Assembly (NCBI RefSeq): GCF_910592395.1
Contig: NC_088312.1
Location: 22,327,292-22,391,291, forward strand
DNA from: Lineus longissimus
Taxonomy: Eukaryota > Nemertea > Pilidiophora > Heteronemertea > Lineidae
Direction of reading: 5' to 3'
Length of the DNA stretch: 64,000 nt
The translations under genes and the position numbers were made by a program. Under the pieces are notes generated by a model. It saw only the letters and a list, made by a program, of their open reading frames with translations. It was not told the DNA's origin and made no database searches. Shown here in pieces: positions 13,486 to 63,913 of this stretch (the first letter of the stretch is position 1; every line of letters begins with the position of its first letter).

Positions 13486-18617
<5,132 letters not shown>

Positions 18618-41660: not shown

Positions 41661-42049
41661 TTTTAATTTGTACATGCCTCATTATATCATATACATGTAC
41701 TGTATGACATTGTAATAATACTTTGTGTTTTTTGCTGTAAATAAAAGTTTCATTTTCAGTATTGTCCGAAGAATATGAGCGTTTTTGTCTTTGTTTCTGT
41801 TAGTTTGCCATGGTTGTGCCTATGTCCTGATCTGGTGTGAACAGAGCCTTAAATAATCCACCTAAGGGCACTCGGACTTGGGCCTCTATCCTTCCTATTG
41901 ACCTGGTCACATTATAGGTTCAGTATGTTTCAAAACTCGAACGCGGGTTGAGGATTGCTCCGAAGTAATCATTGCTATCGGGCTCATTCATTGGTCTACT
42001 TTGAGATGGATTATCAGGTGCGGATCTGCTCGTGCTGCCCTTGGCTCTG

Positions 42050-42290
42050 GGTGTAACCGCATTGTTATCTCGCCAGGTCTGGTTGTGACGGTATCTGCAA
42101 TCCCATCAGATCTGGTTGTGGCAGCATCTGCAATCTCATCAGGTCTGGTTGTGACAGTATCTCCTGTCTACCAGGTCTGGTTGTGACAGCATATGCTGTA
42201 TTATCAGGTCTGGTTGTGGCAGCATATTATGGTATGGTTGTTGCAGTATCTAGTGTCTCTTCAGGTCTGGTGTTCTGATTTCATGTGATC
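42050..42290. repeat. Diverged tandem repeat (tcaggtctggttgtgacagt)
   Basis: About seven units of 35-50 bp sharing aggtctggttgtg(a/g)c(a/g)g. Open frames here are repeat products. Confidence 0.7.
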
Positions 42291-42374
42291 CCTTTATAAA
42301 AATGATCAGGTAATCACCATGTGAAAATGAGACACATTTTTCCTAAGGGTGGAGACAAGGTCTACCCTGTAGAA

Positions 42375-43330: not shown

Positions 43331-43469
43331 GGCCGAAAGTCATTTCTGCAGGTAACAATATAGAGCGACGGTAAAATACACAGGCAGGCCCGTGGCAGTG
43401 GAAAACAGAAATGTCCTCGTTTTTCACTTTCGCTCGGATGTCTTTGAACAGGGTGACAAGTTCATATAC

Positions 43470-44812: not shown

Positions 44813-46219
44813 ATGATACTGAAGGACGGCATCATGTCGGTGGCAGAAACAGAAGAAGAATTCAGTCCAATTCAGGAATACAGTCCAAGTGAGGGACAAG
44901 ATGAAAGCTGCTCTTTTGAGAATATGCAAACGGAGCTGCACTGTAAAGGTGCTGTGCTTACGAAGGCGTGGTCAGACCTGTTTAGATTCATTACAAAATA
45001 TCAGGCAGAACTTGTGATGAAAGAAAATTCCGTTGAAATAGCAGGGAAGGAAATTGAGGAGAGGAAAAAACATTTGGAAGTAATTGCTGATAGTGGTCAT
45101 GATGAAACGTTACAAGATGTGATTTATACAAAGGAAAGAATGTTGAGAAAAGCACAATCTGAACTTGATGTCAAGGACAGAATGTTACAAGAGGTGCAGT
45201 CAGAATTGTCCAGTAATACAGAACTGTTAGAAAAATCTCAATGTGATCTTTTAAAGAAACAAAATGACCTTGTTCAATATCGAGGGAATGTTGAACAGTT
45301 GAAATCCGAGTTGAATGTGAAACAGGAACAAATCAAAATCAAAGACACTTTGCTGAAAAAGTTACAGAATCAACTCATGAAGGAAAATGCGGAGCTGAAA
45401 GAACAGTTGGAGCTTGAACGACGGGCGCTACAGTTGGAGAAACAATCGCATGACTTGACGAAAAGAACCATGTCGTCCCCAGGTCTTAATACAAGAAAGC
45501 GTGCAGTAAGTATTTTTCAAAAAAGTGGTGTTATTGTCTTTATAATGTCAATATGGTATATGTCTGATGACACATTTCATTTGCATTACAGAATGACCAC
45601 ATGTATACATATCCCCAAATCTTGACCCCATGTAGACAGGTGACTGAAACACACCTTGAAAATAGTTTAATTTCTATATTTTGTTTTTCAGAGGATGAGT
45701 GCAGACGCTGCTACTGTGGTAGAAATTTCAGATTCTCCTCCAACCCTCGACCTCTCCGACAGAAAAAACTTTGGATTGTCCAACGTCATTTCTAAGTCTG
45801 AGTCACAGACACAGTCATCGGAACAAGGACGAAGAGTTTCTTCAAGACTCAAGAGCCGAACCAGTACATCACGGTCATCGACAGATCATTCCAGTCATTT
45901 ACACCACATGCCCCCTGCCAGTACGTCTTCATCTCAAGTGACTTACACAACGCCTCAAAAAGACGCCAAATTCCCAGAAACATTCATGGCATCCCAAGGT
46001 AACAACGCACCAGTCAGTGATTCAACTGGTGTGACCAGTGACACGTATTTCCCACTGAGCGTTTCGGAGGACACCAAGCTGATTGACATTTCAAGTATGA
46101 AAGTAGACAGTGATATCCAAGGTGACGTGCCTCCAGTGAGTCCCAGCGCCAGCGATAATGAGGGTGATGTGACCATATCAGAGCTTATACAAAGTCCAGA
46201 GGGCAGCACTGATGCAAAG
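44813..46219 (+). CDS. Locus A shared exons: coiled coil and SIM-like region
   Basis: Two exons, 44813-45505 (231 codons) and 45692-46219 (176 codons), both ending in phase 0 (GTAAGT, GTAGGC). Exon 1: acidic start, the segment MQTELHCKGAVLTKAWSDLF then RFITKYQAEL, and a heptad-rich helix of about 150 residues ending KENAELKEQLELERRALQLE. Exon 2: VVEISDSPPTLDLSD, a hydrophobic core next to DS that resembles a SUMO-interaction motif, then a Ser/Thr/Pro-rich tail (DTYFPLSVSED). No stop precedes the final donor, so a downstream terminal exon is required. It can join in frame to any of five cassettes (47153, 47765, 49671, 51547, 54106). Locus B at 56621 is a paralogue. I take 44813 as start; the second in-frame ATG at 44834 is also possible. 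Not KRAB, SCAN or BTB; the N-terminal domain is unknown to me. Confidence 0.82.
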
Positions 46220-46828
46220 GTAGGCGTCTATTTTCTTCTGAAGTTGTGATTTTTAAGTGACAGCAGTCTTGTGTTGAGAAATGATGCTCTAAATGAATGT
46301 CATCAACCCTGTGTTCTCGGAATGGTTGAAAACCATCTCAAACTCTTGGGAAATCATTTGGAGTCGTCAGGCATACAAACTGCATGACACGCTAATTTCA
46401 AGTACATTCATTCAAAACTAATCTTCCTGGACGAAATGCATTTTTCATCGACTGGCTGCCTTTGAGTTCTCTCCGACACGAAACTGCTGACACTACATTT
46501 AAGACAGGTATTAAAGAGACGTGTCAACTAGAGTAGAAACTTAGAATAAATTTTTGGACACCCAAGGTTCTTCATTTCATTCACATGACTAGCTTGAAGA
46601 TTGCTTTCCACCACAAACATACTTGTATATAATGAGCAATAAAACCATACCGATAGGTACTGTCACATTCAAGTTTTGTTTTTATTTGACTTGACTAACC
46701 CACAGTGTGCAGATGACACCATTGGCCTTGTGATAGAATTACATTGTGATCGTGTTTTAATATTTTTCAATCAAGTTTATTTGTCTGCCAGTGTTTTTTT
46801 GGTAGAAATATGAGAACCTGGGCAAAGT

Positions 46829-47017
46829 TTGGCATTGAAGAGGCCTGTTTCAGAATCTTTGACGATAGCCGGGAGTTCTAGTGCAGATTACAATGCCGAG
46901 GACATGAATGATGATGATGATGATGATGTTAAGGATAGAGCAGGTGATAATGATGAACCTGTTGACAATGCGTCTAGTAGTGATGACACGCCTGGTGGAG
47001 TTGACGCATCTGGTGAC

Positions 47018-47048
<31 letters not shown>

Positions 47049-47065
47049 CAGGTCTGGTGATGTGT
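46829..47065 (+). repeat. Acidic low-complexity stretch with (gat)n runs
   Basis: Two gatgatgat runs within a frame rich in Asp (for example EDMNDDDDDDVKDRAG). Acidic N-termini are typical of piggyBac transposases, so it might be a relic of the element that gave the next exon, but there is no acceptor in the right phase and I do not call it coding. Confidence 0.35.
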
Positions 47066-47152
47066 TGGAAATGATCATAGTAATGATGGATCTGGTGATG
47101 ATGAATACCTGTGGAAATATTCGAAAGAACATTTTCCTTCTCTTGTTTTCAG

Positions 47153-47428
47153 GTGCTTGGGGTCCTTATCTTTCAAGATGACGATCATGCATTGGCCCCT
47201 GCCATTGATAACAGAATTGATACCATTGGGAGGCTGACTGAGCGCCACTTTCCCTCCAGGAAACCAGACAGTGATACGTGGAGGAACCCATTAGCAAGAT
47301 GCAGGGTGTGCACCAAGAGAGGCCTACGACGTGTCTCAAAGTACATCTGTGCAAAGTGTCCGAGTCAGCCTGGGTTGTGTGTCACGCCATGCTTTGAAGT
47401 TTGGCACACCAAAGAGGACTGCTGCTGA
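47153..47428 (+). CDS. Locus A terminal cassette 1: piggyBac-type Cys-rich domain
   Basis: Terminal exon of 91 codons plus stop, TTTTCAG acceptor, phase 0 with the shared exon ending at 46219. The last 55 residues match the C-terminal cysteine-rich domain of piggyBac transposases: RLTERHFPSRKP, CRVCTKRGLRR, YICAKCPSQPGLCVTPCFEV, WHTKEDCC, with the CxxC...CxxC...C...CFxxWHT spacing. In transposases this cross-brace zinc domain binds the element ends. The catalytic DDD part is absent from this exon and from the preceding intron, apart from possible acidic debris. Joined to the shared exons it makes a 498-residue protein. AATAAA at 47712-47717 supports it being a true 3' exon. Alternative: an inert transposon relic with a fortuitous acceptor. 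Confidence 0.68.
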   Translation: MLGVLIFQDDDHALAPAIDNRIDTIGRLTERHFPSRKPDSDTWRNPLARCRVCTKRGLRRVSKYICAKCPSQPGLCVTPCFEVWHTKEDCC

Positions 47429-47764
47429 TTCGTGACTATTCTCTGGACTGTAAACATGGCCGATAAGGACTCAATCCAGCTGCCTATCAATTATCGATCG
47501 CGGATCAATACATGATCAATCAGTATTCATCATCTTGACCTTCAAGGTTTGGATCCACTGCGCCGACCTGGACTCTGTAACACCAAAATGAGGGAAGGTA
47601 ACAGTCAGAGTACTGTTGAAGGTTCAGAATGGTTTTCATGGGAACATCATTATGTTTGATCTCCTTGCTGAACATCTCCCTCAATGTATTTTTAGAAACT
47701 TGCCAGGCTCCAATAAAGTCAAAAATATTGTACAATGATTTTTGTTGTTGTTGTTATCTTTCAG

Positions 47765-48900
47765 AATGGCGATGCTGGACTTCGTCTCGACTGTGAGGAT
47801 GTTCCTGAGGGGGTGAAGGCTGCAGAAAGTAGTAGCCAAACTAAGGAGAAAAAAGACAATTTCATTTGCAAATTTTGTGGAAATGTTTACAAATCAATGA
47901 GCAGTCTTAAACGTCACGAACGTGTCCATATTGGAAAGGGGAGTACTTGCGACATCTGTCAAAAGCAGTACGCGGAAATTTACGATTTGAAACGACATAT
48001 TGCAAGTGTACACGACAAGATTCGATACCCGTGTCCTGAGTGCCAAAAACAGTTCCGCAGCAAGTATTCATTGCAAAGGCACCTAGATGATCACAAAAAG
48101 ATATTCAGGTAAGTCGTGTGACACTAATCGCTGATATGTGCAACAGAAGGATCTCGTTTGCAGGAAAAACGTCAGTGCCCATAGCTGCTGTGTTTCAATA
48201 TTTCTTTTGCGCGTATAAAATATCAGTAGACCTTCCTGTTCGTAAAAGGTAAATCAAGTGACCCTGTTCTTTCTGCAACTCATTTCTCAAGAGGGAGTAC
48301 CAAAGATTGTTGAAATCGACGAACTTGTATTCTGAAAATGATCCTTTTGTAAAGATATGATGTCAGCAAAAGTAATTGAAAAGACACGATTCGCGTCTTG
48401 TAAGTTACGACTTCTCTTCCATTGTAGATACAAGTTGTAAGTTACGACTTCTCTTCCGTTGTAGATACAAGTGCACCAAATGCTCGCCTCTTGTAAGTTA
48501 CGACTTCTCTTCCGTTGTAGATACAAGTTGTAAGTTACGACTTCTCTTCCGTTGTAGATACAAGTGCACCAAATGCCAGCGAGGTTACAACAACAAGAAC
48601 TCGTACAAGCATCACATGGAGCGGCACAATGGAGTCAAGCGCCACCTATGCCCATCGTGTGGAAAACTCTTCGTGCATGCTATAGATCGGGATCGTCACC
48701 ATTATACCTGTGGGACTTCAAGATCTCCTTTCTCCTGTAGTGTTTGTGACAAGACCTTCAAGGATGAACGCTACCTAAAGGAACATGAAAGATACCACGC
48801 GGACCCTTCAGCTTTGAAATGCAAATTCTGTGAAAAAACTTTCCAGTATCAGGCAACTTTCTACAAACACAGGAAAATTTGTCAGAAAAAGCCCAAATAG
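47765..48900 (+). CDS. Locus A terminal cassette 2: seven C2H2/C2HC fingers
   Basis: Two exons, 47765-48108 and 48558-48900 (join splits an Arg codon), 228 residues to the stop, entering in phase 0. The first exon has a short acidic linker then fingers FICKFCGNVYKSMSSLKRHE, STCDICQKQYAEIYDLKRHI and YPCPECQKQFRSKYSLQRHL. The second has YKCTKCQRGYNNKNSYKHHM, LCPSCGKLF (C2HC type), FSCSVCDKTFKDERYLKEHE and LKCKFCEKTFQYQATFYKHR. Linkers are not of the TGEKP type except by position, so DNA or protein binding is both possible. Closely related to cassette 3 (49671-50940), clearly by tandem duplication. Confidence 0.82.
48393..48560 (+). repeat. Tandemly repeated splice acceptor before cassette 2 exon b
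   Basis: The phrase ttgtaagttacgacttctct tccgttgtagatacaag occurs four times (acceptors after about 48426, 48463, 48520 and 48557). Two copies carry the first bases of the exon (gtgcaccaaatgc). Each copy has a usable TAG acceptor and a ttGTAAGT donor-like site. Confidence 0.85.
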
Positions 48901-48934
48901 GCTTGATATAGAGTCTTATATGGGAGTACTAATG

Positions 48935-49112
48935 AACCTCCCTTAGCGGACACCTCAATTAGCAGGACACCCTCTATCAAGGACACTTATATTGGCCATT
49001 TGCATTCAATATGACTTTCATAATCAGGACACGACTCTCTTGAGGACAGCATTCCTCTCTATTATGGACAGTATTCATCTAAGGTGTCCTTGATAGAGAG
49101 GTTTCAATGTAT
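48935..49112. mobile_element. Dispersed CAGTGGAA-type repeat, fullest copy
   Basis: From aatgaacctcccttagcgga to ccttgatagagaggtttcaa, with inverted end phrases (acctcccttagc... / ...gatagagaggtt) and the same inner phrases as at 861. Likely non-autonomous DNA element. Confidence 0.55.
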
Positions 49113-49670
49113 CAGTAGTTCATCCTTTCGCATGGCATGTTTAGCTCCCGGACTAACTCTTATGCATAATAATATGGACTTGATCTCTTTGTCAACTTGG
49201 ACTATCAGAATGACTTCAAACTTTGTTGTGTTATATGAACTTAAGCTGGAGACTGAAGTGTCTTGAGATAATGTCAGACTGGATCTAATGACAATCTGTT
49301 TAGAGTCTAATGGAGGATGTTCCTGCATGCCAAAAATTAGAGAGTCAACACACTTTTACATAAATGTATTGGTGTCACATACACAGAAATTTGATTTCAG
49401 TCGGAGTCATTAGCACTAGTTCAGCATTATCCCAAGACACTCAGCTTCTGGGACCAAGTGCATTGCCCTTCTTTATTCCCATATTTCTGTATCATCAAGG
49501 TTCCATTTCAAGCATACTCAATACTGATGCTCTTCTTTATGTTAGCCAAAGCTGAAGTGACTTATCCAGGACGAACCTCCACAATCTATATTTGGAAAGG
49601 GACCAATAAAATCTGAAAAATCTTAAACTGATTTTGTTTTTGTTTTTACCCGTCGTCTGTTATCTTTCAG

Positions 49671-50940
49671 AATGTTGATGCTGGACTTCTTCTCGACTGT
49701 GAGGCTAATCCTCAGGAGACGACTGAAGGGAGTTTCAGCCAAGCTAAGGAGAAAAAAGACAATTTCATCTGTAAATTTTGTGGAAATGTTTACAAATCAG
49801 TGGGCAGTCTTAAACGTCATGAACGTGTCCATAATGGAAATGGGTTTACTTGTGACTTCTGTCAAAAACAATACCCAGAAGTTTACCAGCTGAAACGACA
49901 TATTGCAAGTGTACACGACAAGATCCGATACCCGTGTCCCGAGTGCCGAAAACAGTTTTGCAGCAAGTCTAATTTGCAGAAGCACCTAGACGATCACAAA
50001 AAGATATTCAGGTAAATTGTTGTTCTTTAAATTAATAACAGTGTTCACAGAATAACGCAGGTATGGCACCTGTGTCTCACAGGGACTAAGTACGAGGCCA
50101 GCGCTGTACCTTTTCAGTTGCAGAAATAAGGTGGATGAAATAATGCATTTTCTTTAATATACATACATACATACAAATAGCATTTATATAGCGCAAAATC
50201 CAATTAGAAAAATTGCTCAGCTGCGCTTAACAAAAACACTGTTCAAATAGTTTGGTTTTTAATCTTCTTTTGAACTCGCTGACGGTGGAGCTGTTGCGGG
50301 TGTTAGTGTCCAGCGAGTTCCATAATTTGCTGGCATAAACTGTAAAGCTTCTGCCACCAAAAGTCTCAAGGCGATACCTGGGAGTCACCAACAACTCTTG
50401 GTTATCCGATCTCAGGGATCGCCCTGGGACATACGATGGCAGGATGTCCGAGATATATGATGGAGCCATGTTGTTTTTGGCTTTGAACACCATGAGTAAA
50501 ACCTTGAAATCGATACGATATGGTATCGGAAGCCAGTGGAGAGTTCAACATCAACACTGCTAACTTCTTGTACGTTACGAATTCTCTTCCGTTGCAGATT
50601 CAAGTGCACCAAATGCCAGCGAGGTTACAACAACCAATTTTCCTTTAAGAATCACATGGACCGTCACAATGGAATCAAGCGCCACCTATGTCCATCTTGT
50701 GGAAAACTCTTCGTTCAGGTTGCTGATCGGGATCGGCACTATAATAGCTGTGGAAACTTGGTTGCTCCTCTCCGATGCAGTATTTGTGACAAGACTTTCA
50801 GAGACACACGTTACCTGAAGGAACACGAAAATTACCATCTGGATCCTTCTGCTTTGAAATGCAAATTCTGTGGGAAGACTTTCCAGTATTCTGGAAATTT
50901 ACACCACCACAGGAAAACTTGTCAGAAGAGAACAGAGTGA
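49671..50940 (+). CDS. Locus A terminal cassette 3: seven C2H2/C2HC fingers
   Basis: Two exons, 49671-50011 and 50598-50940, 227 residues to the stop, phase 0 entry (TCTTTCAG) and the same split Arg codon as cassette 2. Fingers parallel cassette 2 one for one: CKFCGNVYKSVGSLKRHE, CDFCQKQYPEVYQLKRHI, CPECRKQFCSKSNLQKHL, CTKCQRGYNNQFSFKNHM, CPSCGKLFVQVADRDRH, CSICDKTFRDTRYLKEHE, CKFCGKTFQYSGNLHHHR. Differences are concentrated at helix positions that usually contact DNA, as expected for duplicated fingers acquiring new specificity. A LINE fragment sits in its intron. AATAAA at 51162-51167. Confidence 0.84.
50155..50560 (-). mobile_element. 5'-truncated LINE (L2/CR1-like) 3' end
   Basis: Minus-strand frame reads LHWLPIPYRIDFKVLLMVFK, then MAPSYISDILPSYVPGRSLR and KLWNSLDTNTRNSSTVSEFK, the typical end of a non-LTR reverse transcriptase ORF. 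It is followed by gcgctatataaatg and a (tgta)n tail at 50157-50175. Truncated at its 5' end near 50560. Confidence 0.85.
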
Positions 50941-51546
50941 TGGAAATACGTGTAGTTCTTTCCTCTTGCATGCAACTGGAGGAACCGGACTATAACTGTG
51001 ATGTGTGATAATATGGACTTCACTGTTTGCAATCAACTTGGAACTGTCAAAATAACGAAACTTTTTTGTGTTGTATGAACTTGTTTGAAGGAGTAATGTC
51101 TTTATGCAGACAGGGGGCGCTAGTGACCAATCACGAGTCGTTCAAGGATGCATCTATTTCTAATAAAAAGTGTACTCACTTTATTCTATAAACTTCTCAT
51201 ACTGTTTCCATGCATGTGAGTGATATCATGTGTGTCTTCAGGATGATTTGTACATGGTCCTACCTTTGAATAGCCAGTACAGCCGGGTTTCGAGGATGGT
51301 TTCTTTCATATTTCCAAAAACTATAGGAACTTGTACTTAACAGGTCCCCCCCCCCCCCCCCCCTCGACACCATGAGATTTGATGTTGAAGTCTATATTGA
51401 ATAGATGAATGGATGGTGGGTTCTGAAATGACAGTAATTAACTTTTTTATTCCAGGGTGTCATACATGAACTAATTGGACAATCTCGCACCACTGCGCTG
51501 CACCAAAAGACTCCAATTGACCAAATGGTCTTCTTTATCATTTCAG

Positions 51547-53682
51547 AACCAAAATCTAGAAGTGAGGCAGGAGAGTGATGGAACTTGTCTAAAAATGTGC
51601 TCTTCACCAAAAAAATATACGTGTCGAATTGGTGACGAAGCATTCCCATCGAAACAATCCCTTGGACATCACATTCTAGTGCATTCCACTGAGGCTCATA
51701 AGTGCTCTCAGTGCGAGAAAGCGTATATCACAAAATGGCGTCTCCAGCAGCATATGTTAATCCACACTGGAGAGAAACCATATGAGTGTGAGGATTGTGA
51801 TTTTTTCTCAAAAAAGGTGGCAGCGTTGAGAGTTCACATGAGAAACGAACATGGCAAGATTCACGAGTTCTCCGGTCTCCCGTTTAGTAAGCCAGCACCG
51901 ATTGCCAGTGCTGTTGTCGCTGCACAAATCTCGAGTCAGTCAAGTCAGTCTTTGGATTCAAATATTGTAGCAGATTCTGAAGCGATTCTCGAGGAGGAAT
52001 CAAACTTTGTCATTGGCTCTCAAAAAATACGTTGCGATCTCTGTGACTTGGTTTTCCCTTCTGCCCAGTCCCTTGTGGAACATCGACAGACTCACGTGAC
52101 TGTAATATCAGGATCGTCTAATCGATCATCCGAATCTGAAATTATAGCTTCTTCCGAGGTAGCCGTGGAAAGATCAATCTTAAGAGTTAAACTGAGGCGT
52201 TGTGATGAGTTGGTTCCCATTTCCAAGCAAACATTTAGAGTAAACCAACGTACTCACACTGATGAACCGTCAAACCAGTACGAATCCGATACGGTGGTTT
52301 CATCTTCTGAATCAGCTGGACAAGAGGAATCAAACTTGGACAGTTGTTCTCAAGATGTCTATTGCAGTGTCTGCAACTTGGTTTTGCCGTCGGAGCGATC
52401 TCTGCGGTTACACCGCCGTACTCACACCGACATGACCAATGACAAGTCACACGTATGTTCAGTTTGTGACGAGACATTCCAGCGAGCAGACGACCTACAA
52501 AAACACGAGTTGGTGCACAAAGTTCAGAAAACTTTTGTGTGCCCTTTTTGTCAAGAAACGTGCCAGTCAAAGATTGATTTACAGAATCATATCTTGCTTC
52601 ATGGAGATAAATCCAAAAGTGTTCCAGATCGCCAAGACAGAGGAGAAAAATCTAAGTCAAATACGTTGGAGTGTTCAATTTGCCACAAGTGGTTTGTGTC
52701 GCAGTCGGTCCTCAAGGTGCACCTCACCTCGCACACAGATGAAAGACCTTGGGAATGTTCTATCTGTAATAAGAGGTTCCGACAGAGAGCTGGGCGTGAT
52801 AAACATGAACTGATTCACAAGGGGATTAAACCGGTCCAATGTCCTGTGTGCCAGAAGGATTTCAGGGCAAAGTTTGCTTTGCAACACCACATGCGGGTGC
52901 ACAATAAGAAACCTAGAAATGAGCAGTGTCCAGTTTGTGGTAAGCTTTTTGCGACGAAAGGCCTGTTGAAGTCTCATCAGCGTAGCCATTCGAATGACTG
53001 TCCTTGGGAATGTTCAACGTGTGGGAAATTCTTCAAGACGAGGGGGGGTCGTAGTTTTCATCAGATGAACCACACTGGAGAAAAACCATTCAAATGTGAT
53101 CTCTGCAAGAAATCGTTTCGCACAAAATTTGAGTTTAGGTTTCATGTGATGTATCATGCCCGGATGGCTGGTAAGAAACCTAAGCCAAATTACTTCAGAC
53201 CTCGCGTAGAAACATTACAAGATACTGCAGTCGATTCACAGGAGATTTCAACAGCTGTTGCAGGATCAACGGATGTTTTAGCGGATGTTGCGAACACACA
53301 GATTCTGACAGGTTCTTTAGGGACGCAGGCGATTATAGCAGAAGGTGCCGATCCTGATATGTTCTTGATCAAAACCGTAAATGATAAACAAATGGCTTTG
53401 ATCAAAATTCCGCAGGAATCACAGAGGGCTGTTCGGGAAGCTGCAGGAGTGATTCATTCAGTTGAAGAGGGGCAAACAGCAACCGCGGGATTGGAAAGTG
53501 GACAGAGTGTTGTGGACAGTCAGATCTCATCAGCCACAAGCAGCTTGACTTTAGGGGTCGACACGAATATGACCAAGAACCCGAACGCTGGTCCCAATGT
53601 TTATAAGTGCAACGTCTGCCAGAAGGTGTTCATGACACAGCGTCTGCTAGATGTTCACATGTGTAAAAAACTGACAAATTAA
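51547..53682 (+). CDS. Locus A terminal cassette 4: large C2H2 array
   Basis: Single 711-codon terminal exon after a TTTCAG acceptor, phase 0, starting NQNLEVRQES like the openings of cassettes 2 and 3 (both begin with Asn). About twelve intact fingers, for example HKCSQCEKAYITKWRLQQHM, IRCDLCDLVFPSAQSLVEHR, WECSICNKRFRQRAGRDKHE, EQCPVCGKLFATKGLLKSHQ, FKCDLCKKSFRTKFEFRFHV and a last isolated YKCNVCQKVFMTQRLLDVHM. At least two more are degenerate (YTCRIGDEAF lacks its second Cys; LRRCDELVPISKQTF). TGEKP linkers occur twice. Ser-rich spacers (about residues 120-150 and 190-270) and a long non-finger stretch before the final finger. Likely nuclear DNA-binding factor when joined to the shared exons. 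Confidence 0.87.
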   Translation, partial: NQNLEVRQESDGTCLKMCSSPKKYTCRIGDEAFPSKQSLGHHILVHSTEAHKCSQCEKAYITKWRLQQHMLIHTGEKPYECEDCDFFSKKVAALRVHMRNEHGKIHEFSGLPFSKPAPIASAVVAAQISSQSSQSLDSNIVADSEAILEEESNFVIGSQKIRCDLCDLVFPSAQSLVEHRQTHVTVISGSSNRSSESEIIASSEVAVERSILRVKLRRCDELVPISKQTFRVNQRTHTDEPSNQYESDTVVSSSESAGQEESNLDSCSQDVYCSVCNLVLPSERSLRLHRRTHTDMTNDKSHVCSVCDETFQRADDLQKHELVHKVQKTFVCPFCQETCQSKIDLQNHILLHGDKSKSVPDRQDRGEKSKSNTLECSICHKWFVSQSVLKVHLTSHTDERPWECSICNKRFRQRAGRDKHELIHKGIKPVQCPVCQKDFRAKFALQHHMRVHNKKPRNEQCPVCGKLFATKGLLKSHQRSHSNDCPWECSTCGKFFKTRGGRSFHQMNHTGEKPFKCDLCKKSFRTKFEFRFHVMYHARMAGKKPKPNYFRPRVETLQDTAVDSQEISTAVAGSTDVLADVANTQILTGSLGTQAIIAEGADPDMFLIKTVNDKQMALIKIPQESQRAVREAAGVIHSVEEGQTATAGLESGQSVVDSQISSATSSLTLGVDTNMTKNPNAGPNVYKCNVCQKVFMTQRLLDVHMCKKLTN

Positions 53683-54105
53683 AGAGAAAAAAATGAACTG
53701 AACTGAATGAGAGTTGGTGATAGATTAGATTCGACAAGCCAGGGAAGGCATTCTATTAAAAACAAATGTTTTATTATTTTATGGTGCGGTTTCTGTGCGA
53801 GCTTTCCATCATAATGAATCATCATAATGAAATGTATACAATTTCTAATGACGTTTTTTGACGACAATGACAACATTTAAACATTTTTACCTCAAAAGTG
53901 GGCGGCTTTGTGAAACTGCATTTCACCTACCTGTCTATAGTCAGCCTTTAGGGTAACATCCATATGGTGGCTCTTTGCGGTGATAATTTTTGCAAGTTAT
54001 ACTTCTGAATTTGAAAATGAAACCGTTATTGCAGGTCCTGGTTGTCAATCTTTGTGTCATATTTCTCAAGGTTATTGTAAGGTCTTCCTGTGTTTCTCAT
54101 TTCAG

Positions 54106-55197
54106 AGTACTAGGGAGTTGGAGGATGAATTGTTGTCAGCCGCCTTATCTTCAGATGGTGCCATCCCAGTTGGTGCAACTTTAACAATTGATGATGCGGC
54201 GGTCAGCTCAGGAAAAGGCGTGAGACCTGGTACCAGTGCCAGTTATGGTACAACAGATATTGGTACAGTCCCTGTTGTTAATGTCACTTTTAACAGTGCT
54301 GGTACAATGGGGGCGACACCTGCAGCTCGTCCTAGCAATGGTCCCAGTACAGTTAAGAAAACAAAATGGAGGAGACGAAAACCAGAGCCAAAGAAATTCA
54401 AATGCGAATATTGTGAGATGGCTTTCTCGACTAGTTCAGGTGTAATAATTCATACACGAACTCATACTGGTGATAAACCTTTTAAATGCTCAATGTGTTC
54501 AAAGGCGTTTGCGCGGGAAGACAGTTTAAGAAATCATGTCATGATCCATACCGGAGAGAAACCAAGTAAATGTTCGATCTGCGGGAAAAGCTTCAGAGAG
54601 AAGAAGTCATTGAGATATCATCTGCTGACACACAAGGAGTTGATTCCTGCGATAAACCGCATTGTTGAGGAACAAAGTCATGAAGCTGGAACGATCAATC
54701 CTATTTACAAATGCAGGATTTGCCAGAAGGTGACTCGGGGGATGGGAAAATATAAAATACATTTGATTCGGCACAGAGAGTTGGCACCAGCCCTTCACAG
54801 TATTATGAATGAACAAAAAACTGACCGGAAGATTCGAGCTACAGTACCAAAGAAACATATACAATGTTCTCTGTGTTTGAAAATTTTTGAGAAGAACTCG
54901 CTTTTTAAAATTCATTTTCGTACCCATACCGGTGAAAAACCATTCCTGTGTTCAGTTTGCGGGAAGTCTTGTACAACAGATGGCAGCCTTTCTAAACATA
55001 TGCAAACTCACTTTGGAATTGAGAGCTGTAAAACAAAGCAATGTCCTTATTGCGATAAGGCTTTTAGAGATGTGACTGGTTTGCGTGAACATCAAAGGAT
55101 TCATACAGGAGAGATGCCATATACCTGTCATCTTTGTGGAAAATCGTTCAGATTTAAATCAAACCTTAATGCCCACTTGCGCATACATAGGAAGTGA
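54106..55197 (+). CDS. Locus A terminal cassette 5: eight C2H2 fingers
   Basis: Single 363-codon terminal exon after a TTTCAG acceptor, phase 0. It opens with an acidic helix (STRELEDELLSAALSSD), a Gly/Thr-rich spacer and a basic patch (KKTKWRRRKPEPKKFK), then eight fingers: FKCEYCEMAFSTSSGVIIHT, FKCSMCSKAFAREDSLRNHV, SKCSICGKSFREKKSLRYHL, YKCRICQKVTRGMGKYKIHL, IQCSLCLKIFEKNSLFKIHF, FLCSVCGKSCTTDGSLSKHM, KQCPYCDKAFRDVTGLREHQ, YTCHLCGKSFRFKSNLNAHL. Several TGEKP-like linkers. AATAAA at 55409-55414. Confidence 0.87.
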   Translation, partial: STRELEDELLSAALSSDGAIPVGATLTIDDAAVSSGKGVRPGTSASYGTTDIGTVPVVNVTFNSAGTMGATPAARPSNGPSTVKKTKWRRRKPEPKKFKCEYCEMAFSTSSGVIIHTRTHTGDKPFKCSMCSKAFAREDSLRNHVMIHTGEKPSKCSICGKSFREKKSLRYHLLTHKELIPAINRIVEEQSHEAGTINPIYKCRICQKVTRGMGKYKIHLIRHRELAPALHSIMNEQKTDRKIRATVPKKHIQCSLCLKIFEKNSLFKIHFRTHTGEKPFLCSVCGKSCTTDGSLSKHMQTHFGIESCKTKQCPYCDKAFRDVTGLREHQRIHTGEMPYTCHLCGKSFRFKSNLNAHLRIHRK

Positions 55198-56620
55198 ATT
55201 TAAGAGGGAAAAATGGGTTTTCAGTAGATAAGAGTGTCCTTAATAGAGAGGTGTCTGCTAAGGGAGGTTCCACTGTAATTTACTTCGTTGCTGAAACTGA
55301 CTATTCTGTTTGTGAAATTCTTCATTGTTCAGTGTGACACAGGCATTTTGTGAATAGATTGAGTATATTTGTATCCGTGTATTTGGTAGGTAGCCATTAG
55401 GAAGTATAAATAAAGAGATTTTCTAATGATAAATATTTCAGTGGTGCTGTTAGTGAGTTGGCTCATAATTCCCTCTTGCCAGATGAGCGGAGAAAATATC
55501 CTTTGATTGATCTGCTTGGAGAACAGTCGACCCCACAACTCAGCCATTTTGTTTTCCTACAACCAGGACTGCAGTTGATCATCAGAAAAGAAGTGAATTG
55601 GAGACAGACGATAGACCAGTCTTTAGTTGGTTGTGATATTGTCTCTTGGTGGAGACGCCTCCTAATTTGGATCAGTCTGTCAGTTTGATTGAGGTGCAAC
55701 AACTAGTCTATGGGTGGTGCGCTTGGGTTAACTTGTGCCAAGACAACTGGCATGTTTGATCCCGTGATCGGACCGGACATAAAGACAACTGGAGACGCCT
55801 CCTCTGCTTGTGTCTCTTCTTGGTACTACAAGTACCACAAGATCACAACCTCATCGTAAACCTCCCGCAAGCAAAACTACATTACTGCTTCGCCGCTGTA
55901 GACACCCAGGGGTTAATGATCTTGACAACTGTACAAGTTGGCTGTGAAACAGTTCGTCCCTTATTGATAATTGCAAGGAAAATGAACCTGTCTTTTTAAT
56001 ACACCCTGTAGCTCAAAGCTCGCGTGCGCTTCACAGTTCCGAATCTCCCGCCTGTTCTCGATATCTCAAGGAGAAAAAACATGGTGGATTATTCACGAAT
56101 TTGTCGGCTTTGTTGTCGAATTGCACAAAAAAACCCTAGTTTTATCACAACTTAACATCATTAGCGTAAGTTAGATAGTCGCCAAATGAACTTGTGCTCA
56201 TGATGGTTTAATTTTGAGGGTCGGAATCGACGTCTTTTGAGTAAATATACTCTTTTTTTGTACATGAATTTCTGGCCAAATTTTTCTTCGGGGAGTTTTG
56301 CCATTCTCCGATTGGCGGCGCACACGTGCTGACACAAAATCCATTGCATTTCATTATTCCTTCATTATTTGGGACGAGTTTAGGGCCCGAGTTTACAAAC
56401 CCTGATCATGGCCCAAAAAAGTTCATCAATTGACGAAATAAATGACAAGCATTTTTGGCTTGAAGTGACAGTGCTAGGCTAGCCCCAGTGACTAGTGTCC
56501 GTGTGAGATGTCAATGTCATTTCAAAGTGTTTTCTGGGTTTCTAGCCTGAGCAAGTGATGGTACCCTGATTATTGTTTTTACAGAGAGGCTGCATCATAA
56601 AATAAAGTTCCCGTTGGACG
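55198..56620. other. Spacer between loci A and B
   Basis: Holds the cassette 5 3' UTR, a fragment of the CAGTGGAA-type dispersed repeat (55225-55285) and the presumed promoter and untranslated first exon of locus B; a TTTTTACAG acceptor lies at 56575-56583. Open frames here show no domain. Confidence 0.4.
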
Positions 56621-58213
56621 ATGAAGGACGGCACTATGTCGATTGCAGATCCTGAAGAAGAATTCAATCTAATGCTGGAATCGAGTCCAGCAGCCAGGGA
56701 AAGCAGCTCGCCTAAAGAGCAGAAAGAAGATGATTCATTTGTCACCATGCAGACAGAGCTGCATAGTAAAGGTGCTGTGCTCACGAAGGCATGGTCGGAC
56801 TTGTTTAGTTTCATCACAAAATATCAGGCAGAACTTGTTGTGAAAGAAAATATGGTCGAAATAGGGGAGAAAGAAATAGAACAGCGAAAGAGACAATTGG
56901 AAGAAATGAAACCAGTGGTTGACGCTGGTAACGAAGAGGTGTCTAAATTACAAGATGAGATTCGGATGAAGGAGGGACTGCTGAGCAAAGCACAATCACA
57001 ACTTTCTGTCAAGGAGAGATTGTTGCAACGGGTACAATCAGACTTGTCTTGTAATAGGGAACTGTTGGAGAAAGCTCAATCTGATCTTTTAGACAAACAA
57101 AATAACCTCATTCGTTATAGAGGTGATTTAGAACACTTGAAATCGGAGTTGAAAGTGAAACAAGAACAAATCCAAATCAAAGACAATTTGTTGAAGAAAT
57201 TACAGAATCAACTCATGAAGGAAAATGCCGAGTTGAAGGAACAGTTAGAACTTGAGAGGAGGTCTCACGAGTTGGAAAAGCAGTCGCATGAATTGACGAA
57301 AAGATCTTTGGTGTCGCAGAGTATGCAGAGTGAGAGGAGGAAGAGACAGGTTAGTTTTCACGGTTTGTTTTCAGTAAGTTTATCTCGTTCAATTTGTTTG
57401 GTAATCTGCGGGATAGTGTTCAATTCTCTGCAGGAAATGATACCAAAGTTGGTAAAAAACTTGTTCTGTTTATGTTATTGCAATAACATGTCGGGTAGAA
57501 AGTCCGAAACAGCCCACCATCATACTTTGTGTTACCCAGATATCATTGCTGATCATTTTGTTTTCTTCTTCACTCAGAGAGCTGAAGATGTCCCTGCCAT
57601 TGTGGAAATCCCGGACTCACCTCCAACCCTCGACCTCTCCGATGTTGCCGAAGATTTTGGACTTTCAAACATAATCTCCATGGCGACTAATTCATCACCA
57701 TTGGGCCAAGATTCTCAACAAAGAAAACCTTCCTCAGAACTTGACACCAGCCAGATTGCACCAAACGTTCCAAGTCATTCTCCGTCCTATGGCGATTCAG
57801 AGTGTTTACACCATATGCCTACTTCGACCACTCTTTCTCAGTGCGATTTCTCAACCCGACCAAAAGTGTCCCGATCTTCGAGGTTTATGTCATCACCCTC
57901 TGTTACGCCATCGCAGACTTCGGTACCAAGTACATGTATCAGTGACAGTATTGAGTTAAGTCATACTGCCATGATATCCAGTGATACGTTTTTCCCCCTC
58001 AGTGTGTCTGAGGACGTTAAACCTGATATTGACACTATGACCTCTAGTATGCAAATAGACAGTGACAGTCAAGGCAATATGCCAACTATAAAACCAGGGA
58101 CCCCTACCTCGGGGACAAGTGATAGTAATCAAGGCCCAGTGCCAGTGTCTGGGCCGATCGCAAATCCAGCGATGTCACCAGGTGGCAGCAGAGATGGCAG
58201 AGCAGATGGAAAG
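56621..58213 (+). CDS. Locus B shared exons: coiled coil and SIM-like region
   Basis: Paralogue of the exons at 44813-46219. Exon 1 56621-57349 (243 codons, GTTAGT donor), exon 2 57578-58213 (212 codons, GTAGGG donor), both phase 0. Exon 1: MKDGTMSIADPEEEF, MQTELHSKGAVLTKAWSDLF, SFITKYQAEL, then a long coiled coil ending KENAELKEQLELERRSHELE. Exon 2: AIVEIPDSPPTLDLSD (SIM-like), a Ser/Thr/Pro tail, SSDTFFPLSVSED as in locus A. The 228-base intron is a multiple of three and open, so a spliced and an unspliced form would both read on into exon 2. Candidate partners downstream are the cassettes at 61805, 62481 and 63465, and possibly more beyond the window. Confidence 0.83.
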
Positions 58214-61200
58214 GTAGGGATCAGTTTTAGAGTATCCTTCTAATATTTCAACAGTAACAGCAATTTTGGTTTTGGAGTATTACTAGCAATAAGTCAGAGT
58301 GGTGCCATATCAGTTGAGGTGCATGTAAAGCTGTACACCAGAGACCGTGTTTTCGTGGCGAGTGTCCATACTTCACATGGACTTCAAAACGGAAAGGAAA
58401 TTGAGAAGTTTTCAGCAGTGGAGTACAAATGAAAATGTAGCTCGTAAAGGTATCCACACTGTATTGTGCAGAGTGCACTTTAGGTGTACATTGGCACGAT
58501 TGGATTAATCAAAATTTTCTAGCCCAATGTCAAATTTCCCTTTCTTGAGTGACCTCTTAAAAAAAGTCAGTGAGGTGATCTTGAATATTTACATTGAATT
58601 GTCTAGCTCCAAGTCCAAGTATCTGACTATCCTGAACTGCAAAAACTTTGACAAAACAAAATTGCTGACACTAGTGACTAAGGGTACAGAATGACTTCTC
58701 CAACTCAAATCTCCATACACCCGTACTACTGAGAACGAATTAAGACTAGTCTTTCTTGATCCTCAGAAGTTTCTAAAATCCATTTTGCTATGCCCTACAT
58801 TGTAAGGTTTGTAAGGTCATGAAACTTGAGAAAAATGTCATAAACGTGATGAAAAGGTTCTCATGTACAATGTACTCTCACATGCAGCGCTTCATAGCAA
58901 AATACTGCCACTGCCCATGCCTGGTTTTTGTATAAATAGAAGACCTGCAATTGCCATTTTAAAAGAATGTGTTGCTGTGTGGAGATTTGTTGAAAAGGTT
59001 GTGCTTGAATGTTCGTATGGAGGTGAACCATGCTGCTGCATGTAACAATATTGGCAAAGGCAATTTGGTTGGGTGGCATGGATTAGACTGGTATGGATTG
59101 AAGCAATTAGATCCACAAAGATCGTGATGCTGGTTATAGCAAATTGAAATCCAACCTGAAATTGGCGGGCCTCTCCATCTCCAGCCCCAACATTCAAACG
59201 TTACCAACTTCAAAATCTAGAAGAATTGGGATGGCGTCTTAGTGTGAAGAAAGTATGATATGTCAGGGGGAAATGCACTTTGTGTTGAAGGAGTTGAAAG
59301 TTGTTGACATTGGGAGAGCAAGAATGCAGGTCCAACAAAGGACCTCCATGAGTCATCAATGAGTGTTCTGTCTGGACAGTGCTGGCAGTAGTTTGCAAAC
59401 TGTACGGCAGTCTTGGTCAATGGAAGAGAATGAGAGCCATGTTAAATTTCAAACACTGCACAGGAAACGATGGAAATCTGAAGTCTGGATGTTTGAAATG
59501 ATAGATTCATGATGAGTGGATTTGGTATTGGTTGGCCACTCTCTGCCTTGAAATGCAGATGACAGTTTGAAGAATAATGCTCAACTTTGAGAACTACATC
59601 TGTCATAGGTTCTTCACACTGAAATGCCATGGTGATATTTCGAGTTTGCAGAGAAGTTTGGACCTGTCATTTTGTACTCAACATGTTTTTGATATAATTG
59701 ACAACTCATCTTAGCATTTACGCCTGACCATCCCATTACATATGTAGCTTGTCATATTGTCATATACGGAAGAAATTCCAATCCAAATCATTTAGCTGAC
59801 CTTTCAAGAAAAGGAGTATTTTGCTTTGGGAACTTAGTGTTCATTTGCACTGATTACATTCTTGCTAAAAGATGAGTTGTTACTTTCAAAACCACCACCA
59901 TGGACAATTAAAGTAATAATTTTAACCTGCCAAATGAGCACTGCTTCTGTTCAGGTACTGGTGTAATATTTAGCTGAGGCCTGAATGGACAACCCCAAGT
60001 CATTTGCTCTCACACTGGTTCATCAAGTTGATTACAGTACATTCTGTACATGTTGATCTTGGCCATGTTAGTCTTACCATAGTCCTTTGTCCAAGAACTA
60101 TTTTTGGGTGAAAGGTACTATCACACTAGTCATTGTGGACAAGTTGTAATTGATCTAAATAAATTATGACAAAGTTTGTCCATGGTGGAGTGTTAAAAAA
60201 AATCTGCGTCTTGGCATTCTCGCTTCTTACTAACATCTTTACAGACAGGAAAGTCAATTTTCAGACTTTCCAGTCAAAACTTTTCTGAGGTTTTTATTTC
60301 CACGAATCTCAGTTATTCGCTACATCCACGAAATTAAAACGCCCGCCAAAAATGGGTGGCTTGCAGTGTTTCATAAGCTGATGAATAGGTTTGCTGCCTG
60401 CTTGCTTGCTTGATACTCTTCACTGTCTGGCTTGGTACAATCCATGGTTCTCATACTGGCTGTTGAGCTCAGAGACAAAGCTTAGAAATACGTGCTTGCC
60501 TTTTAGCGGTGAGCCCATGACCAATTGACAAGAGCCTAGAGGAAATCTCTGGGATACCGTACTACTAGATGTTATGTTGACAAACTCTGTCTGGGTAAAG
60601 TGCATCGACTTTGATGAATGAAAATGTGTTAGCCTGTTGGAGGGAGCCACTTCAGGGTCGGTCGGTCGGACCAGATAAAAGACATTATTCTGTTCAGCCC
60701 AACATAATCAGCGATGTTGTAATGCAGCGGGCCAATATCCAGTATCACGTTCATGCACTTGTAATATGCTCTATCTCAAGACACCAACACAAAATATCAG
60801 ACTGCGGTTGGACTTACACGTAGAGGACAATTTGAATGAAATGGTTCTCTCAGGAAGGAATGTTTGTGTTAACGGTCTAGCAAGGAAAGTCTTTTGCACC
60901 CGGTTTGTACCATGGCACCTGTACAATACAACCAACGAGGGATGGTTTAGTACTGCACCAGACAATGTGAGGTATGAGATTTGCATCTTCACCTTTAAGG
61001 TGATGGAGAAACATGACGACGGAAGGAGTTGACAACTCGAGTTCCTCTCTGTTCCTGCCTCTTCTATGATGACATGTGACGGATGTCCAGTTCTTCAAAC
61101 ATAACTGTACATAATCTTGGTATCAAGTATCAAAATGCTCTGTCCTGCGTTGAAAATAATACCTCAAATCATATCAGTGCTTCAAGTCATTGAAGTGTCC

Positions 61201-61804
61201 GAGTGGAAATTGAGTTTTGCTACATGTACATTTCGAGATTGTCTGGAATGGAAGGATGAGGATGACATCTATCACAACTGAGTCAAAAGGAACAGTACTT
61301 TCAGGTAATATTTGGAAGTGTGAAAGTTCCAAAGGATATTATGAAATAAACATAGTACATGTATTTCCCTTGTGGTTCTTTGAAGTTGATGGTACATGAA
61401 CAATAATGAACAGTGATGTCATTATGTTGATGAATCAAGTCAATGTGAGAGAACTGTGGAAAATCTTTTAGAACTGCTGCATTCACGAGAATCAAGTTAA
61501 GCCACCTGTAGCTCATCTACACAGATTTTCTTTGTACTGCAGGATGCCCTCACGGATAAAGAAAGTGCAATTGGATTTTTGGCCAGAAACCGATGACCTT
61601 GATGTTTTCGTAGCTAAGGGGTTTCACCGTCCTATTTGAAAGAAGATTCCGAGATAAAATTAGCATTTTACCATTTCAGCTTTTCTCTTTCTTTTAACAA
61701 CAGGTGAGAGGGAGTTTTGGTTTCTTGCCTTCCTTCTTGGTTTGCTCACAAACAAAGCAATCATTTGACCAGCCATGTCACTAAGTCCTCTTCTTCTTTT
61801 CCAG
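58214..61804. other. Long intron of locus B
   Basis: No zinc-finger or Cys-rich cassette found in 3.6 kb, unlike the matching part of locus A. A CAG acceptor at 61543 begins a frame (DALTDKESAIGFLARNR, stop) that could be a very short phase-0 terminal exon but has no supporting feature. The 60766-61032 open frame has no domain. Confidence 0.35.
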
Positions 61805-62143
61805 CGACACTTCATGGGGAGGCTCAGTCTCATGGATTACTATTCGTCGCGTTGGAAGCCTTTCGCCTGTCCGCACTGCCCTATGACGTGCTCCGTTGCG
61901 GGTAACCTCAAGACGCACATGAGGCGCCACTCGGGGGAGCGGCCTTATAAGTGTCCGGTCTGCCCACGGGAATTTGCCCGCTCGGATGCGCGGATGCGTC
62001 ATGTTCGTCTTCACACTGGCGAGAGACCTTATGTGTGTCGTTGGTGTAACAAACGTTTCGTGGAGGGCGGCAATTTACGGAAGCACATGTTGGCCGTTCA
62101 TGGCACAATGATAAATATGGCAAATATAAAGCCGCCAATATGA
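61805..62143 (+). CDS. Locus B terminal cassette 1: three C2H2 fingers
   Basis: Terminal exon of 112 codons after a TTTTCCAG acceptor, phase 0 with the exon ending at 58213. Starts RHFMGRLSLMDYYSSRWKPF, then FACPHCPMTCSVAGNLKTHM, YKCPVCPREFARSDARMRHV and YVCRWCNKRFVEGGNLRKHM, with SGERP and TGERP linkers, so sequence-specific DNA binding is likely. More GC-rich than its neighbours. Stop at 62141-62143. Confidence 0.82.
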   Translation, partial: RHFMGRLSLMDYYSSRWKPFACPHCPMTCSVAGNLKTHMRRHSGERPYKCPVCPREFARSDARMRHVRLHTGERPYVCRWCNKRFVEGGNLRKHMLAVHGTMINMANIKPPI

Positions 62144-62480
62144 ATGATTTAGTCAGACATTGCTAGTGGAGGTGACTTTAGTGCTGGAGGGAAGTTGTCC
62201 AAAGTTGAGCAGTGTGTCACAGCAATGTTTTTTTTCAGGGAAGTTTCACAGTCATGAAAGCCACACAAGGATAGGAAGACTTGTCTCCTCAAATATAACT
62301 CAAGGCTTCTAAGCAGCTATTCATAGTGTGTACTTGTTTGTTACTTCTTACTTCTAAGTTTTCCTGTTTCTTATTCTTACAGTGATAGGTGTTATATAAA
62401 CCTGATTACCTCGGATTATTCCTTCAACGTTTGACAATTGATCACAGCTGAAATTCAATGACTTGCTTCTTCTTTTACAG

Positions 62481-62765
62481 TACCCATTCCATGATGCTGC
62501 TTTACCATATTTGGCCCGCTACAGGTGCTCAATATGCGGCCATTGCTCGTCAAGTAACGGTAACTTAAAAATCCACATGAAACGGCATTCGGGAGAACGT
62601 CCTTTTGAATGTCAATTTTGTAGGCGTACGTTTGCTATGAAACAAACTTTACAACGTCATGAACTTATTCATACAGGAGAAAGACCATTTGCTTGTCAAG
62701 TATGTGGGAAGCGCTTTCCACTGCTGCACAGTTTGAAGAATCATCTTATGGTACACCTAGAATGA
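62481..62765 (+). CDS. Locus B terminal cassette 2: three C2H2 fingers
   Basis: Terminal exon of 94 codons after a TTTTACAG acceptor, phase 0. Starts YPFHDAALPYLARYRC; fingers YRCSICGHCSSSNGNLKIHM, FECQFCRRTFAMKQTLQRHE and FACQVCGKRFPLLHSLKNHL with SGERP and TGERP linkers. Related to cassette 1 of this locus in length, linker type and the GNLK helix of the first finger. The protein ends four residues after the last histidine pair. Confidence 0.82.
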   Translation, partial: YPFHDAALPYLARYRCSICGHCSSSNGNLKIHMKRHSGERPFECQFCRRTFAMKQTLQRHELIHTGERPFACQVCGKRFPLLHSLKNHLMVHLE

Positions 62766-63464
62766 CACTAGGAGGGCGAATCTTCTTTTTCATTTGAAAG
62801 AAATTGTTCACAATAACAATATCGTGTACTGGCCATGTGGCCTTGTCGTGAGCATTTATTCTTAGGTTTAGGAGTTTTTACACGACACTTTGGGGGGAGG
62901 GGGGAAGTCAAACCTGGTTTAGGTCAACAGGGTGCCCAATTGGTTGGTACAGGGTACAGTGCCATCCGTGTGAGTTTTGTAGGCTTGTAAGCCTGTCACC
63001 TAGAGATTTTCTTTTGTTTACATGATTCAGCTACATGTAGTGATGTTTTTATACACAAATCACAATGTCAGATCGATGTCTCCACAATTTTATGTAATTT
63101 CTGTAAATTCAAGTGTGCTATATTATTTCCTATACCTATTTACATTGTAATTTGACTATTTTCTTTTCAATTTATGAATATTAAAAAAATGAAAGTTAAT
63201 ATTAAGTTTTTGAGTTGTAATTTTTTGGATGAAATAACGGCCTAATTGACATCAAGTCTGTTATTAAGAGCAAGGGAATCTCCTCGTAATCACTGCTGTG
63301 GAATCCAATACCATTCCTGGCTGCCCCCATATAGGTTTCTACTGCATATTTCTAAGCATCTTTTGAATCAGATGTTGGGGCCCTTGGTATTTACCATGTA
63401 GGTCTTGTGCAGTGCAATGCCAATCAGTCGAAGCTCAAAAAGACGTTCAACTTTCTACTTCCAG
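62766..63464. other. Cassette 2 3' UTR and spacer
   Basis: AT-rich, with a G run at 62891-62905. No supported feature. Confidence 0.3.
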
Positions 63465-63913
63465 ACGTATGGATCACGCCCCACTGATGTCTCTGAACGG
63501 TTGAAATGTCCGCTGTGTGAAAAAGTTTCCTTTCAAAATCACATCTGAATGCTCACCCCTGCATCCAGTCGGGACAAAAACTTGTCTTCCGATGTTCGTT
63601 CTGTCCGATGACATTCTCCTTGCGGCATAATTTACAGCGTCATGTTCGTATTCACACTGGAGAAAAACCATTCAAATGTTCATTTTGTGATAAAGGTTTC
63701 ACACAAAAAACGCATAAGATCTTACACGAACGGAGTCATACCGGGGAGACACCTTTTGTTTGTCCAATTTGTAAGAAGGGCTTCAAGATCAAGCAGATAA
63801 TGAGGACCCATATGATCATTCATCATAGAGCAGAAGGTGCGAACGCATTTCTTAATTTTAGCCAATTTTTCTCTTGGTCTGATTTTTTGAATGGGTGGAA
63901 CTTGCCTGTTTAG
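63465..63913 (+). pseudogene. Locus B terminal cassette 3: C2H2 fingers, frame broken
   Basis: TTCCAG acceptor and phase-0 opening TYGSRPTDVSERLKCPLCEK, as in the other cassettes, but the frame meets a stop at 63546-63548. A one-base shift at the A run near 63535-63538 would carry it into the frame that contains three good fingers: FRCSFCPMTFSLRHNLQRHV, FKCSFCDKGFTQKTHKILHE and FVCPICKKGFKIKQIMRTHM with TGEKP and TGETP linkers, stop at 63911-63913. Either the cassette has decayed recently, the assembly lacks one A, or a different acceptor is used inside the exon. The fingers themselves show no other damage. Confidence 0.6.

Follow-up and report, generated by a model that had tools for sequence, protein, structure and literature searches.

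We have found that a 64,000-nucleotide stretch of the genome of the nemertean Lineus longissimus (C5:22,327,292-22,391,291, where C5, of 23.93 Mb, is by its size chromosome 5 of the assembly published in PMC8593623; the stretch is referred to below as the window) contains two loci in which a common 5' part is followed by a series of alternative 3' ends. The two loci very probably belong to a large nemertean family of modular regulator genes in which the common part is spliced in phase 0 to one of several terminal ends. Locus 1 consists of an exon 1 and an exon 2, which together encode 407 amino acids, followed by five cassettes (c1-c5), and locus 2 of the corresponding exons, which encode 455 amino acids, followed by three cassettes (d1-d3; Table 1). 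Locus 2 runs past the end of the window, and the next 7 kb contain more zinc-finger open reading frames (ORFs) with phase-0 acceptors.

Phase-0 Junctions at Two Loci

A preliminary description of this DNA had the common exons end in phase 0 at 46219 and 58213, and our reading of the exons of both loci bears this out. Seven of the eight phase-0 acceptors that it assigned to the cassettes also stood (47153, 47765, 49671, 51547, 54106, 61805, and 62481). Each follows a pyrimidine-rich tract, and phase 0 is open from these sites for 91, 115, 114, 711, 363, 112, and 94 codons, respectively, whereas the other two phases are open for only 1-73 codons. The eighth (63465) did not stand and is taken up in the Discussion. 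Cassettes c2 and c3 continue into second coding exons (48558-48900 and 50598-50940) joined in phase 2. The sequence AATAAA, said to lie behind three cassettes, is found within 700 nt of the stops of c1, c3, and c5, and so the count was correct. The ends had all been called zinc fingers; c1 is indeed of a zinc-binding type but, by its match to the Pfam family zf-Tnp_2, it is a piggyBac-type ribbon and not a C2H2 finger.

We examined the phase of acceptors in 23 plus-strand ORFs with at least two fingers, 9 from the window and 14 from an array locus of the same family (see below). Exactly one good acceptor precedes the first finger in 13 of these ORFs. The internal second exon of c3, which is in phase 2 as expected, was removed from the 13, and the other 12 are all in phase 0 (12/12; p ~2e-6 with a chance of 1/3 each). 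Among the remaining ORFs, seven have several good acceptors, in each case including one in phase 0, two have none by the rule used, and the last is the second exon of c2, which is internal.

At locus 1, locus 2, and the array locus, the branch donors read AAAG/GTAGGCGTC, AAAG/GTAGGGATC, and AAAG/GTAGGGATC, respectively (the slash marks the end of the exon), and the rest of the intron has diverged. The donor pattern GAYGGNAARGTAGGSATC would be expected to match by chance about 0.4 times, by our estimate. All four metagenome fragments that cover exon 2 (see below) have GK or EK and then VGI, which in translation corresponds to a similar donor. The usual donor consensus is GTAAGT; the branch donor deviates from it at +4 and +6 and might in this respect be like a regulated donor.

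Isoform Models

The preliminary description proposed that these loci produce sets of isoforms with a common (predicted) coiled-coil part and different ends. NCBI models, the alternative versions of which rest on transcript alignments, match the predicted junctions for c2, c3, and d1: the common part of locus 1 is joined to c2 in P0001 (the short form) and to c3 in P0002, and that of locus 2 is joined to d1 in P0013.

Two protein searches yielded 22 groups of L. longissimus proteins that share an N-terminus (20 in the first count, plus P0056 and P0058/P0059), and the clusters of these groups represent 173 member sequences when summed over both searches. At least two C-termini are represented in 14 of the 20 groups, and in 12 of these 14 the common part stops exactly at ...GK or EK. 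In P0001 and P0002 the common part is one residue longer, both cassettes beginning with N; P0033 and P0050 diverge before GK/EK, and P0050 is without one stretch.

C2H2 genes are often clustered, and the cassettes could be the last exons of independent genes of this kind, with the apparent layout an artefact of the gene models. The occurrence of one N-terminus with different C-termini in so many groups and the uniform phase of the 12 acceptors both argue against this explanation. So does the position of the first in-frame ATG in c1, c3, c5, and d2, where it is absent, behind the start of the first finger, or deep in the exon. We regard independent genes as very improbable.

Alternative terminal exons of one gene could also be assembled in another way, with each cassette a separate transcription unit and the common exons joined to it between transcripts. 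Isoforms of the insect gene lola are formed by both cis- and trans-splicing (PMC1947980), and protein models do not distinguish the two routes. However, at each locus every cassette is downstream of the common exons and in the same orientation as they are, and among the three loci compared no conserved docking stretch extends past the branch donor beyond about 9 nt. Trans-splicing is unlikely on these grounds; joining is presumably in cis, and the choice of end is presumably regulated.

The short form P0001 ends in ...RYKL, as would result from an upstream copy of the acceptor of the second exon of c2 that lies in the tandem repeat at 48391-48576. We infer that P0001 uses this copy. Because the 93-nt repeat copies the acceptor, c2 may yield either a three-finger or a seven-finger end through acceptor choice.

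A Family on Chromosome 5

With exon 1 of locus 1 as query, and with all 82 candidates from a first look scored, the genome gave 44 matches, none of which contains a stop codon. They fall at 43 places, of which 42 are on C5 and one is on C11. A divergent query gave 39 matches, none at a new place. Six pairs of family members on C5 stand head to head with the starts of exon 1 2.0-4.3 kb apart (for example, 22474110 on the minus strand and 22477365 on the plus strand), and the members of such pairs perhaps share a promoter region.

The array locus (C5:3,796,474-3,810,544), which was read whole, has two common exons and then 15 C2H2 cassettes in 11 kb. The cassettes are 87-122 amino acids long and about 0.6-0.9 kb apart, and a phase-0 acceptor is available for each; these acceptors were picked for phase, and the phase-0 one is the sole good acceptor in 8 of the 15. 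Four of the 15 cassettes are backed by NCBI models (P0034-P0037). As to a dense family cluster around C5:3.8 Mb, a family match was found in none of five further 10-kb pieces. Beside the array locus, on the opposite strand (C5:3784101-3788273, minus), is a 1,391-codon ORF with 15 finger-like matches. Exactly three fingers (strict pattern) are present in 42 of 64 cassettes that we compiled, a set that leaves out P0001, P0002, and P0013 (identical to window cassettes), P0034-P0037 (identical to array cassettes), and P0040, P0046, P0054, P0055, P0056, P0058, and P0059.

A profile of 11 N-termini retrieved 53 L. longissimus proteins and 11 fragments from JGI metagenomes, 64 in all. The best 7,993 candidates by common words were scored, so that distant relatives may be missed; among the matches listed there was no named relative of the N-terminus outside L. 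longissimus. Viral contigs gave 137 pattern matches to exon 1, none of them a true relative.

We placed 29 exon-1 proteins in a tree, in which the seven metagenome fragments that cover exon 1 do not form one group. Four of these fragments pair with particular L. longissimus loci at starred support (P0062 with P0055, P0053 with P0052, P0057 with P0030, and P0051 with P0021 and P0033); P0029 joins locus 1 of the window and P0003 (92/83), P0060 joins P0030 and P0057 (93/96), and P0061 is unplaced. The fragments look like orthologues, and because they adjoin particular L. longissimus loci in the tree, several duplications would predate the split between the species. Between locus 1 and locus 2 the ratio of nonsynonymous to synonymous substitution rates (dN/dS) is 0.20 for exon 1 (dS 0.98) and 0.18 for exon 2 (dS 2.4, near saturation), and between c2 and c3 it is 0.30. 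The common exons are, as judged by these rates, under constraint.

The Common N-Terminal Part

The N-terminal domain had been described as not BTB, KRAB, or SCAN, and this holds: neither N-terminus has a Pfam family above the cut-off or a match of its profile to sequences in the PDB. There was no BTB match at an expectation value (E) of up to 0.1 at either locus, nor was a KRAB domain found by Pfam in either N-terminus. AlphaFold predicts for exon 1 two long helices (residues 31-93 and 97-220; mean predicted local distance difference test score of 86), and a Foldseek search with this fold against the PDB gave no match at E up to 10.

For exon 2 we aligned 20 of the 22 L. longissimus groups as rows together with four metagenome fragments. 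An FPL motif is present in all 24 rows. A single pattern picks out a VIEIPDSPPTLDLS-like stretch in 16 L. longissimus rows (of 20) and in three fragments (of four). This stretch may resemble a SUMO-interaction motif adjoining a CtBP-like LDLS.

Ends Resembling Transposase Exons

The match of c1 to zf-Tnp_2 (E = 4e-10; 40.5 bits against a cut-off of 24) is accompanied by a weak match to the piggyBat transposase (0.003), and the cysteines of the ribbon are kept in the alignment. The four nearest relatives of c1 in the genome are 64-80% identical to it, and each has a piggyBac DDE match 275-373 nt upstream in the same orientation. In a piggyBac copy on C12, the DDE exon ends ...AFLAFSHE in phase 0 and is followed by an intron of 78 nt that starts with GTAAGT and finishes with CAG; the c1-like exon beyond it begins at the same boundary and in the same phase as c1. 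In the 315 nt that begin at the acceptor and finish shortly after the stop, the two are 79% identical in DNA; their dN/dS is 0.25 (0.17 for the zinc part). All these resemblances identify c1 as the last exon of a piggyBac transposase.

Whether c1 serves as an exon is a separate matter. At least 117 piggyBac DDE matches are present in the genome (the best 116 of 411 candidates were scored), so remnants are common, and c1 could be the unused leftover of a dead piggyBac while the other cassettes are real. No model with c1 is among the cluster representatives, though its product of 498 amino acids is within the length range searched, and it may be selection acting on the transposase that accounts for the low dN/dS between c1 and the copy on C12. 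On the other hand, c1 is open for all its 91 codons in phase 0 from an inherited acceptor with a pyrimidine fraction of 0.94, and it has retained its ribbon cysteines and a low dN/dS.

No DDE_Tnp_1_7 match accompanies the ribbon of c1; of the at least 117 matches, three among those listed are on C5, none near the window. The distribution of zf-Tnp_2 matches speaks for use: among those listed, the ones for which no same-strand DDE match is listed within 6 kb are 11 of 11 on C5 as compared with 25 of 74 elsewhere (p = 3e-5), a test that is weakened because the best 116 of 411 DDE and 150 of 236 zf-Tnp_2 candidates were scored and because five of the C5 matches sit in a single cluster. Two of the 11 have a family exon 1 upstream on their own strand, 2.5 kb (c1) and 4.3 kb away. 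That c1 is an unused leftover is a substantial possibility, which we nonetheless judge to fall short of probable.

Five of the other nine C5 matches listed cluster at C5:5.67 Mb and four are isolated. The cluster (C5:5673273-5680009, minus) has its five zf-Tnp_2 matches in 7 kb, with no DDE match and no family exon 1 among the matches listed, and is perhaps an array of piggyBac-type ends. We also looked around c1 for a small piggyBac element with terminal inverted repeats; of 17 pairs, none was convincing.

A second type of transposase domain is seen in the NCBI models P0040 and P0056, which end in HTH_Tnp_Tc5, a helix-turn-helix domain, above the Pfam cut-off. A genome match at C5:11,578,685 (minus), 21 kb behind an exon 1 at C5:11,599,694 (minus), presumably represents the end of P0056. 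From the piggyBac exon c1 and the two Tc5-type ends, family loci appear, at the level of sequence, to take up exons of transposases for use as alternative ends.

Other Features of the Window

The features of the two loci are collected in Table 1. Repetitive ORFs with recurring stretches occupy both strands at 41902-43355, before locus 1. Farther upstream, the minus strand has a Tc1/mariner-like transposase in two overlapping ORFs at 22979-24131 (HTH_Tnp_Tc3_2, 6e-22; DDE_3, 3e-11), a possible protein kinase exon at 15908-16187 (below the Pfam cut-off, at 9e-4 and 19.1 as against 31.7 bits, and CDK8-like by eye only), and an exon of an Ist1-family gene at 8836-9133 (Pfam Ist1, 5e-29). A search for known RNA families gave no match.

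Table 1. Positions within the window of the exons, cassettes, and donors of the two loci
Feature	Position	Strand	Remarks
Locus 1 exon 1	44813..45505	+	Start codon, conserved N-terminus, predicted coiled coil; identical to P0001/P0002; two helices predicted
Locus 1 exon 2	45692..46219	+	Linker with conserved short motifs; phase-0 end
Locus 1 branch donor GTAGGCGTC	46220..46228	+	Resembles donors of locus 2 and array locus
Cassette c1	47153..47428	+	piggyBac transposase terminal exon (zf-Tnp_2) by sequence, including stop
Cassette c2 first exon	47765..48108	+	Three fingers; NCBI model P0001
Tandem repeat copying acceptor of c2 second exon	48391..48576	+	Repeat unit 93 nt
Cassette c2 second exon	48558..48900	+	Coding
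Cassette c3 first exon	49671..50011	+	NCBI model P0002
Cassette c3 second exon	50598..50940	+	Coding; NCBI model P0002
Cassette c4	51547..53682	+	711 amino acids, 12 fingers (loose pattern)
Cassette c5	54106..55197	+	363 amino acids, C2H2 fingers
Locus 2 exon 1	56621..57349	+	Identical to P0013
Locus 2 exon 2	57578..58213	+	Phase-0 end
Locus 2 branch donor GTAGGGATC	58214..58222	+	Compared with locus 1 and array-locus donors
Cassette d1	61805..62143	+	Three fingers; NCBI model P0013
Cassette d2	62481..62765	+	Three fingers
Cassette d3	63569..63913	+	Three fingers; acceptor 63569, not 63465

Discussion

We propose that in this family the common 5' part, a coiled-coil exon and a linker exon, ends at a phase-0 donor, GTAGG, from which it is spliced to a terminal exon chosen from several that also open in phase 0. 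Each of these exons has a stop and presumably a poly(A) site of its own. Whichever is chosen, the part presumed to oligomerize and to bind cofactors would stay the same, and the predicted DNA-binding domain would change; in most cases it consists of about three C2H2 fingers and sometimes of a piggyBac zinc ribbon or a Tc5-type helix-turn-helix from a transposase. The predicted helices and the domain types point to DNA binding and to action in the nucleus. Common parts would have multiplied along chromosome 5 and cassettes would have been duplicated locally, and a transposon exon that landed downstream with a phase-0 acceptor could become a new end.

Several observations weigh against this interpretation. 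From 63465, where d3 was first drawn to begin, phase 0 hits a stop after 27 codons; from the acceptor at 63569 it opens into 114 amino acids with three fingers. Probably 63465 is not an acceptor, or else the cassette is broken, and 63569 fits. Past the end of the window, a stop breaks one of the ORFs of locus 2. Among the cluster representatives, none was seen with c1, c4, c5, d2, or d3, the products of c4 and c5 being outside the length range searched. In eight cassette pairs, the DNA-contact positions are not faster (61 of 108 as against 109 of 216 other non-structural positions; p = 0.35), and selection for altered DNA contacts is not supported by these sequences. Finally, oligomerization of the common part is a prediction from modelled helices for which the PDB gave no match.

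A more far-reaching version of our proposal is that the roughly 43 loci, nearly all of them on a single chromosome, constitute a platform for exon capture built on a common oligomerizing regulator, open to any phase-0 terminal exon that arrives downstream, the already spliced last exon of a transposase included, and that the family grew perhaps by recognizing and silencing the transposons from which its ends came, as a counterpart of the KRAB genes. We consider this version rather doubtful, and a role in transposon defence is suggested by analogy. One gene could yield a whole set of gene-control proteins, and c1 displays a route of capture in its sequence, the acceptor and phase of the transposase exon fitting the host donor. 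If transcripts confirm this, an origin of regulators by exon capture would become testable, as would growth of the family through conflict with transposons.

How does the family compare with known systems? To our knowledge, the layout of one front and many ends is known mainly from single insect genes; mod(mdg4) has the same BTB-type layout as lola. In lola, each isoform combines the common N-terminal exons with a single C-terminal exon from a large set, most of which encode zinc fingers, and there are at least 20 isoforms (PMC1947980). The Lineus family is like lola in its common 5' exons and alternative zinc-finger terminal exons, as seen in both models and sequence. It differs in having, instead of BTB, a predicted coiled-coil N-terminus without known relatives, in comprising about 43 loci rather than one, and in that some of its ends appear to be transposase-derived.

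Fusions of host genes with transposases through alternative splicing have been described in vertebrates (Cosby et al. 2021, summarized in PMC8616336). There, a transposase domain is joined to a host domain by splicing, as it would be in c1, whose phase, boundary, and origin fit at the level of DNA, and as it is in the NCBI models P0040 and P0056 with their Tc5-type domain. In Lineus, however, the transposase exon would be one of several ends beside C2H2 cassettes at the same locus, and the captured piece is a spliced terminal zinc-ribbon exon. Similarly, in CSB-PGBD3 one of the alternative terminal exons of the host gene is piggyBac sequence, but this is nearly a whole transposase, whereas c1 holds the terminal zinc-ribbon exon only. 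The KRAB zinc-finger genes are large, clustered families of C2H2 regulators; the Lineus genes are without KRAB and would owe their diversity both to gene copies and to the choice among terminal exons.

A survey of transposon-derived regulators across animals (PMC10027918) does not mention piggyBac, Lineus, or Nemertea in its main text, and by title, in a thin search of print, we found no description of this Lineus family. The layout is thus already known from lola and the capture of transposases by splicing from vertebrates; what is new is a family of about 43 loci, some of whose ends appear to be transposase exons.

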